Positions 9,393-23,910 of a DNA stretch of 44,351 bases are shown here, piece after piece. The first letter of the stretch is position 1. Each line of letters begins with the position of its first letter. Position numbers and translations under genes: made by a program. The notes beneath the pieces were generated by a model that searched no databases, was not told the origin of the DNA, and saw only the letters and a list, made by a program, of their open reading frames with translations. Origin of the DNA: Candidatus Woesearchaeota archaeon (GTDB lineage: Archaea; Nanobdellota; Nanobdellia; Woesearchaeales; JACPJR01); the NCBI GenBank assembly GCA_016187565.1, contig JACPJR010000028.1:1-44351 (forward strand), read 5' to 3'.

Positions 9393-9400
9393 TTTATAAA
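9393..9400 (+). promoter_or_regulatory. TATA box for tRNA-Arg
   Basis: TTTATAAA centred about 30 bases before the first tRNA base, the correct spacing for transcription starting a few bases before the tRNA. Confidence 0.7.
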
Positions 9401-9426: not shown

Positions 9427-9539
9427 GGGCCTGTAGCATAACCTGGACAGGGCTAATCAGCTTGGCATTTATGCCACCACACCAGTGAGTGCGGCCGGCT
9501 TCGGACCGGCTGATCGGGGTTCAAATCCTCGCAGGCTCG
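9427..9539 (+). tRNA. tRNA-Arg(UCG) with a probable 39-nt intron in the D-loop
   Basis: Acceptor arms GGGCCTG (9427-9433) and CAGGCTC (9532-9538) pair with one G-U; the discriminator is G9539 and CCA is not encoded. The T arm is CGGGG (9515-9519), loop TTCAAAT, CCTCG. The anticodon arm is GCCGG (9494-9498), loop CTTCGGA, CCGGC, giving anticodon TCG at 9501-9503, which reads CGA. About 40 extra bases lie between the D-loop and the anticodon stem. The best model removes 9449-9487. D-stem GCAT (9436-9439) then pairs fully with GTGC (9489-9492), whereas pairing with the nearer GGGC (9450-9453) leaves an A-G mismatch. The spliced D-loop is AACCTGGACA, with G18-G19 and A21 in place. Splicing would need the archaeal splicing endonuclease and RtcB. 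Confidence 0.85.
9449..9487 (+). other. Predicted noncanonical tRNA intron (position 20/21)
   Basis: CTGG (9443-9446) can pair with CCAG (9482-9485). This leaves three-base bulges ACA (9447-9449) and TGA (9486-9488), the geometry of the bulge-helix-bulge motif cut by archaeal splicing endonuclease. The intron body contains a hairpin with TGGCAT and ATGCCA arms (9463-9476). The inner helix next to the central one is weak, so this may be a relaxed form of the motif; exact ends could shift by a base or two. Confidence 0.6.
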
Positions 9540-9540
9540 C

Positions 9541-9547
9541 TTTTTTT
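9541..9547 (+). terminator. Oligo-T terminator of tRNA-Arg
   Basis: Seven T residues start two bases after the discriminator base, as expected for archaeal intrinsic termination. From 9548 to 9713 I see only promoter sequence for the next gene. Confidence 0.65.
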
Positions 9548-22454: not shown

Positions 22455-22488
22455 TTTTAAAGGATGGATACTCTCCTCCAATTTGGAG
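22455..22488 (+). promoter_or_regulatory. rtcB-proximal promoter and CTCCAA-T-TTGGAG repeat
   Basis: TTTTAAAG (22455-22462) predicts a start near 22484. The perfect inverted repeat CTCCAA-T-TTGGAG (22476-22488) straddles it, and its right arm contains the GGAG ribosome site. It could be an operator or, if transcription starts further upstream, an RNA hairpin hiding the ribosome site. Confidence 0.35.
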
Positions 22489-22497
22489 AATAATACT

Positions 22498-23910
22498 ATG
22501 ACCTATAAAGAAAAACTTATCCAAAAAAGTGATTTTGAATGGGAGCTTCCCAAGGAAGCAAGAAAAGATATGCGCGTTAATGGACTGATCATTGCGAATA
22601 AGGAGATTATTGACACCATGGAAGATGATACCATTGGCCAGCTTGCAAATGTCTGCTGTTTACCCGGCGTTCTTGAGCCTGTGCTGGCGCTTCCTGATGC
22701 TCATTTTGGGTATGGCTTACCGATGGGAGCTGTAGCAGCATTTGATGCAGAAAACGGCGTTATTTCTGCAGGATTATGTGGGTTTGATATTAACTGTGGA
22801 ATAAATTCTATCCGAACAAATTTACGCCATCAGGAAATCAAAGAAAAACTCCCTGAGCTAGTGCCAAAACTGTTCAAGGCCATTCCGTGCGGCGTTGGTG
22901 CAAAAGGACGTTTACGTCTTGACGCTCAAGATCTGGATGCAGTCATGGTACAGGGAGTAGATTGGGCAATTGCCAAGGGATACGGATGTCAGGAAGACAA
23001 AGAACATTTGGAAGAGTTAGGAAGGATGGAGGGTGCTGATCCTCAAAAAGTATCAGACCTTGCACGTCAGCGAGGGAGAGCACAACTCGGTACACTCGGA
23101 GCGGGAAATCATTTTTTAGAGATTCAAAAGGTTGGCGATATCTACGATAAAGAAACAGCAAAAAAATGGGGTATCCATGATACAGACCAAGTGCTTATCA
23201 TGATTCACTGTGGAAGCAGGGGCTTTGGTCATCAGGTTGCTACTGATTATTTAAAAATTCAAGAACAAGCAGTCAAGAAGTATAATATTATCCTGCCTGA
23301 CAGGCAATTAGCATGTGCACCAGCAAACTCTCCTGAAGGAAAGGATTACTGGAAAGCGATGATTTGTGCGGTTAACTACTCATTTACCAACCGTCTGATC
23401 ATGACGCACTGGATACGAGAAGTCTTCGAGGATGTCTTCAAAAAATCGTGGCGAGCAATGGACATCCATACTATCTATGGGCTATGCCACAATGTGGTAA
23501 AGCTCGAAGAACATATGGTTCATGGAGAAAAAAAGAAGGTCTTTGTCCATAGAAAAGGAGCAACCAGGGCATTCCCTGACGTCCCGGTGTTAATTGCTGG
23601 TTCTATGGGAACCTCTTCTTACCTTTTAAAAGGGTCAGCAGATTCACTTACAAAGACCTTTGGATCGAGTGCTCATGGCGCTGGAAGAGCAATGTCCAGA
23701 CATCAAGCCATTAAGACCTTTCGTGGAGAACAAATCAAAAAAGAACTCGAAAGTAAGGGTGCGGTGGTAAAGGCAACAGGTGCACAGAGCTTGGCAGAGG
23801 AAGCTCCGTTAGCGTATAAAAACATTGATGCAGTTGTCAACAGTATCCAAGGAGCGGGTATTAGCATTCCTGTAGTACGCGTCGATCCTATTGGCGTCGT
23901 GAAGGGATAA
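22498..23910 (+). CDS. rtcB: RtcB tRNA-splicing ligase
   Basis: GTP/Mn-dependent RNA ligase joining 2',3'-cyclic phosphate and 5'-OH ends; in archaea it ligates tRNA exons after splicing endonuclease. Visible motifs are PDAHFGYGLPMG (about 66-77), FDINCG with metal ligand C100, GAGNHFLEIQ (N204, H205), HCGSRGFGH (H237), CHNVV, HRKGATRAF and SSAHGAGRAMSR, where H393 is the guanylylated His. The C-terminal VDPIGVVKG is standard. At 470 aa it is normal length with no intein. An in-frame TTG at 22483 is possible, but it lies in the ribosome-site region; the ATG at 22498 is preferred. It is convergent with the giant gene, 27 bases apart. Its substrate probably includes the intron-bearing tRNA-Arg of this window. 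Confidence 0.95.
   Translation: MTYKEKLIQKSDFEWELPKEARKDMRVNGLIIANKEIIDTMEDDTIGQLANVCCLPGVLEPVLALPDAHFGYGLPMGAVAAFDAENGVISAGLCGFDINCGINSIRTNLRHQEIKEKLPELVPKLFKAIPCGVGAKGRLRLDAQDLDAVMVQGVDWAIAKGYGCQEDKEHLEELGRMEGADPQKVSDLARQRGRAQLGTLGAGNHFLEIQKVGDIYDKETAKKWGIHDTDQVLIMIHCGSRGFGHQVATDYLKIQEQAVKKYNIILPDRQLACAPANSPEGKDYWKAMICAVNYSFTNRLIMTHWIREVFEDVFKKSWRAMDIHTIYGLCHNVVKLEEHMVHGEKKKVFVHRKGATRAFPDVPVLIAGSMGTSSYLLKGSADSLTKTFGSSAHGAGRAMSRHQAIKTFRGEQIKKELESKGAVVKATGAQSLAEEAPLAYKNIDAVVNSIQGAGISIPVVRVDPIGVVKG

Follow-up and report, generated by a model that had tools for sequence, protein, structure and literature searches.

The stretch of DNA analysed here (the window, 44,351 nt) is contig 28 of a genome of 1.94 Mb with 96.7% completeness, and the nearest named relatives of a neighbouring gene are Candidatus Woesearchaeota MAGs, at 57–64% identity. 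On the plus strand, positions 9427–9539 hold a tRNA-Arg(UCG) gene whose D-loop is interrupted by 39 nt (9449–9487), very probably an intron. The 5' exon (9427–9448) comprises the 5' strand of the acceptor stem, the TA, the 5' strand of the D-stem and the D-loop up to position 20a, a layout shared by intronless orthologs; the 3' exon (9488–9539) carries A21, the 3' strand of the D-stem, the anticodon arm (UCG), the T-arm, the 3' strand of the acceptor stem and the discriminator G, and CCA is not encoded at its end. The acceptor stem (GGGCCTG/CAGGCTC), T-stem and anticodon stem are fully paired (7/7, 5/5 and 5/5, respectively), in agreement with an earlier note on this DNA that had called these arms excellent, and the anticodon loop is CTTCGGA. 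An archaeal TATA box (TTTATAA, 9393–9399) lies 34 nt upstream of the mature 5' end, and TTTATA-like boxes at -31 to -36 also precede many other tRNA genes of this genome; a run of seven T residues, the likely terminator, directly follows the gene (9541–9547). The same strand encodes RtcB, the tRNA-splicing ligase (22483–23910; PF01139, E 6e-156), whose presence the earlier note had also recognised. On the minus strand, a 6802-residue ORF (23938–44346) extends almost to the window end and is apparently a giant repeat-rich surface protein.

Removal of 9449–9487 joins GGGCCTGTAGCATAACCTGGAC to AGTGCGGCCGGCTTCGGACCGGCTGATCGGGGTTCAAATCCTCGCAGGCTCG in a 74-nt sequence that ARAGORN reads as a complete tRNA-Arg(tcg), so the restoration of the tRNA claimed by the earlier note was reproduced, with a surplus of 39 nt and not the 40 that it had counted. 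In the window, no tRNA was detected on the unspliced gene by ARAGORN in default mode or by Rfam at the curated gathering threshold; at low stringency, Rfam gave only a sub-threshold match to the 3' part (9476–9531). The intron mode of ARAGORN called a tRNA-Trp(cca) on the unspliced gene, a wrong parse. A purpose-written cloverleaf parser that tolerates introns and gives a small bonus to bulge-helix-bulge (BHB) pairing among cut positions scored the intron-bearing tRNA-Arg(UCG) at 57.9, compared with a best single-intron parse of 34.5 in 200 dinucleotide shuffles of the region, a maximum of 39.9 in 60 shuffles when up to three introns were allowed, and scores up to about 44.5 for genome decoys. 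Three cut positions are equivalent in their product (9449–9487, 9450–9488 and 9451–9489), and the BHB favours the first.

This BHB consists of a 4-bp central helix between CTGG (9443–9446), which is exonic and includes G18-G19, and CCAG (9482–9485), which is intronic, flanked by the 3-nt bulges ACA (9447–9449) and TGA (9486–9488); by the established BHB rule, the predicted cuts fall at 9448/9449 and 9487/9488. The intron also contains an internal hairpin, TGGCAT-TT-ATGCCA (9463–9476). A complete tRNA upon removal and a central helix between two cut-site bulges are features by which archaeal BHB tRNA introns are recognised, and both are found here. The helix and three-base bulges described in the earlier note are therefore present, but they do not form the strict hBHBh' motif, since a contiguous inner helix is absent and the outer helix has 2 bp. 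The outer helix can be formed either by A9441-C9442 with G9489-T9490, for which the D-stem must open (-39.5 kcal/mol), or by the D-stem itself across a 3x3 internal loop (-43.1 kcal/mol). The minimum free energy fold of the precursor (-44.3 kcal/mol) prefers other pairings near the D-arm, with an advantage of about 1 kcal/mol over the D-stem plus central helix and of 5 kcal/mol over the strict BHB with the 2-bp outer helix. The motif is a relaxed BHB, a form accepted for non-canonical archaeal introns (PMC6379350).

The same site was followed in relatives of the order by BLAST of the tRNA-Arg(UCG) gene over 60 genomes and subsequent parsing, which gave intronless orthologs with the same exons (for example ...ACCTGGATAGTGCG... 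in genome G051), as well as orthologs with D-loop insertions and others with introns at 37/38. A search of 353 genomes of the order with a variable-gap pattern (GGAY...AGTGC) followed: the exact intronless junction GGAY^AGTGC occurs in 45 of them, a gap of 30–40 nt in 14 and, in the short-gap search, a gap of 12–26 nt in 8, with one further short-gap match due to a single inserted base. Overall, 22 of the 353 genomes, from 12 families, carry insertions of 12–40 nt at this junction, differing in sequence. With 22 insertions and 45 intronless genes, the D-loop site is thus one where introns recur, many relatives having none. Genome G189 possesses an intron-bearing tRNA-Arg(UCG) gene as well as an intronless one (G189:C35:17361-17428; G189:C32:816-847), and in the single-contig relative G010 the tRNA-Arg(UCG) gene (locus L196) has a T-loop intron (59/60) instead of the D-loop one.

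Complementarity at the cut sites is conserved in these genes. With junctions fixed by the intronless orthologs, and hence independently of the parser, all four pairs of the central helix are present in 13 of the 22 intron-bearing genes (1.0 expected from shuffled introns) and at least three in all 22 (6.8 expected). In most of the 22, the 5' strand is the exonic YTGG with the invariant G18-G19, and the 3' strand is intronic, mostly CCAR. The enrichment reinforces the helix proposed in the earlier note, and the intronless orthologs with the exact junction, together with the 21 other genomes with an insertion there, corroborate its call of a tRNA-Arg(UCG) with a 39-nt D-loop intron. That the locus is a functional gene with one BHB-type intron between 20a and 21 can be held with high confidence, because the spliced cloverleaf, the exact junction in intronless orthologs, the recurrence and the complementarity all point to it.

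Other readings of the insertion fare differently. A decayed tRNA pseudogene with an unrelated D-loop insertion would account for the failure of ARAGORN in default mode and of Rfam at its gathering score, but it is very improbable: all stems are intact, promoter and terminator are present, and the site is occupied in 21 other genomes by different sequences that keep the complementarity. Moreover, a second tRNA-Arg(UCG), which the earlier note had named as a refuting observation, was not found in the 96.7%-complete genome, and this only copy found would have to decode both CGA and CGG (91 and 42 codons in the window ORFs, respectively), as the other detected CGN tRNA has the anticodon GCG. A group I or other self-splicing intron, a class known from rRNA genes of Woesearchaeota (PMC6125680), can practically be dismissed at 39 nt, which is far too short, and no Rfam intron match was obtained. 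These two readings were rejected on length in one case and on intact stems, recurrence and kept complementarity in the other. It is somewhat less improbable that an intron of the same class is cut at 9450–9488 or 9451–9489 with an unchanged mature tRNA: A9449 equals A9488 and G9450 equals G9489, so that the product cannot tell the positions apart, and in some orthologs (G023, G341, G014 and G135) the best BHB is shifted upstream by two bases; the canonical BHB geometry, with 4/4 central and two outer pairs, nevertheless suits 9449–9487.

The intron of tRNA-Arg(UCG) belongs to an intron-rich set. The tRNA census of this genome drew on Rfam, a T-loop pattern and targeted stretches and is incomplete; within it, the parser accepts 35 tRNA genes, 26 of which bear introns (32 in all). 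The introns are located in the anticodon loop (15), D-loop (10) and T-loop (7), and two Thr genes with unusual T-loops were seen by eye beyond the 35. This corresponds to about 0.9 introns per tRNA gene, the D-loop and T-loop together accounting for more than half of them, in comparison to a mean of 0.21 over 217 archaeal genomes and 0.84 in Thermoproteales (PMC8450103). Two relatives from other families resemble this genome, with about 44 introns in 36 parsed tRNA genes (G004) and about 23 in 22 (G010), per-genome counts being approximate owing to doubtful parses such as L158 on the minus strand and the G004 T-loop 'introns' of 89 and 93 nt bounded by direct repeats. Across the three genomes, four of four pairs were counted in 11 of 13 D-loop introns (0.3 expected) and 26 of 30 T-loop introns (0.8 expected), counts that lean slightly towards pairing because of the BHB bonus of the parser. 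The T-loop introns mostly end in YGAA-AG^T, which pairs with TTCR of the T-loop. These complementarity counts suggest that near-invariant tRNA segments (YTGG, TTCR) may supply half of the recognition helix; introns of one type could in this way be accommodated in many tRNAs. In G010, a single contig rated 100% complete, only about 15 Rfam tRNA matches exceed the cut-off, apparently because introns hide the rest; this suggests that the tRNA counts of Woesearchaeota are underestimated by standard tools.

The endonuclease architecture, which the earlier note had proposed to determine, was examined through the EndA gene of the same genome (G000:C21:12150-12680, minus strand), which encodes 177 aa with both Pfam domains and the catalytic Y, H and K. 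Its strongest match in the PDB is the Nanoarchaeum equitans catalytic subunit (3IEY_A, E 1.8e-37), followed by the enzyme of Methanocaldococcus jannaschii (1A79, E 2.6e-32), with which it aligns without gaps at L10. In all 29 aligned EndA sequences (its own and those of 28 relatives), the Y, H and K and an acidic L10 segment, mostly V-D-D/E-E-G-D-V, are in one chain, and none has the CSL/ASL insertion, the lineage-specific loop of the N-terminal domain with a conserved Lys, at the point at which the S. tokodaii alpha subunit bears its extra loop. A single gene without duplicated domains, with catalytic triad and acidic L10 in the same chain, makes this EndA look like an alpha4 type by the published classification and, judging by gene content, it would be a homotetramer. 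Alpha4 enzymes are called narrow and tied to intron-poor genomes, while the broad enzymes, (alpha-beta)2 and epsilon2, contain a beta subunit and in many cases CSL or ASL loops (PMC6379350, PMC4090602). The requirement for a broad-specificity endonuclease asserted in the earlier note is consequently in tension with the genome, whose one detectable EndA looks like the narrow type.

An alternative is a heteromeric, broad-specificity EndA whose divergent beta subunit escapes Pfam and single-sequence searches. In the PDB, the EndA of this genome is closest to the catalytic subunit of the (alpha-beta)2 enzyme from N. equitans, which is reported as broad, and beta subunits of the crenarchaeal type may be too divergent for detection. 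Such a hidden subunit is nonetheless rather unlikely, since searches with PF01974, PF02778 and protein sequence at E<=10 returned one true gene and only chance-level extras; the PF01974 cut-off is exceeded in 57 of 60 relatives, nearly always by one full-length gene; the N. equitans beta subunit matches the EndA of this genome at 59 bits, so that a similar beta should be visible; and the acidic L10 loop is retained in the catalytic chain of 29 genomes. That a single-gene, alpha4-type EndA, lacking a beta subunit and CSL/ASL loops, splices the dense relaxed introns of Woesearchaeales at 20/21 in the D-loop and 59/60 in the T-loop is an evenly balanced proposition. If true, the accepted link of enzyme type to intron diversity would break, and docking on near-invariant tRNA segments (YTGG, TTCR) may be how a simple enzyme copes. 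A testable problem is posed by a large DPANN order in which the three genomes sampled have about one intron for each tRNA gene and no EndA other than an alpha4-like one is visible.

The observed cloverleaf, junction, recurrence and complementarity, with RtcB and one EndA gene present, fit a splicing path in which tRNA-Arg(UCG) would be transcribed from its own TATA promoter and the 3' segment of the intron (CCAG) would pair with CTGG of the D-loop, exposing the two 3-nt bulges. EndA would then cut both of them, most likely at 9448/9449 and 9487/9488, RtcB would seal the exons, and the D-stem (GCAT/GTGC) would form after their joining. Recurrence of the site would follow from the use of near-invariant tRNA sequence as half of the recognition helix, YTGG of the D-loop at tRNA-Arg(UCG) and, for the many 59/60 introns that these organisms also carry, TTCR of the T-loop. 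Counting against this explanation are the preference of the minimum free energy fold for other pairings near the D-arm, the absence of the inner helix and the apparent alpha4 type, reported as narrow (PMC6379350), of the only detectable EndA.

In comparison with known systems, the intron as such belongs to a familiar kind. Position 20/21, rare according to the earlier note, is a tRNA intron site known from the literature (PMC4090602) and is not exceptional in this lineage. The non-canonical 20/21 BHB introns of Thermoproteales, other Crenarchaeota and Nanoarchaeota are alike in position, size range and BHB logic, likewise co-occur with 37/38 and T-loop introns and, in Thermoproteales, reach a similar density (PMC8450103); the present case differs in its lineage, Woesearchaeota, and in an apparent alpha4 EndA without CSL instead of (alpha-beta)2. 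N. equitans, a DPANN relative with the closest EndA catalytic chain, likewise has relaxed BHB substrates but possesses alpha plus beta subunits and split tRNAs, in contrast to the one EndA gene, with acidic L10 retained, found here. The alpha4 EndA of M. jannaschii is also the product of a single gene and of nearly equal length (179 aa), with both domains, acidic L10 and no CSL/ASL, but it is described as narrow and acting on strict BHB, whereas most D- and T-loop introns of this genome are relaxed. In the Asgard Atabeyarchaeia and Freyarchaeia, which belong to a different phylum, most tRNA genes likewise have introns, often at non-canonical positions (PMC11291895). In a literature search of partial coverage, no account of tRNA BHB introns in Woesearchaeota was found. 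Published work links non-canonical tRNA introns with endonucleases of the (alpha-beta)2 or epsilon2 type, frequently equipped with a special loop; the less expected element is the setting, an apparent mismatch between intron-rich non-canonical tRNAs and an alpha4-like EndA.

Further tRNA genes deserve mention. An identical 28-nt D-loop intron (ACAGGAATCGACAAGATCCCTGCGGGAA) is present in tRNA-Glu(UUC) and tRNA-Glu(CUC) (L026, L015/L021; G000:C33 and C3), which points to gene duplication or intron transposition. Apparent intron-bearing tRNA-Ile(UAU) genes occur in this genome (L026), in G010 (L199) and in G004 (L181); this tRNA is seldom found in archaea, and N. equitans and Korarchaeum use it in place of Ile2(CAU) (PMC8450103). 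Finally, locus L019 on contig C9 of the same genome is an 86-nt class-II-like tRNA without an intron and with the apparent anticodon AAC.
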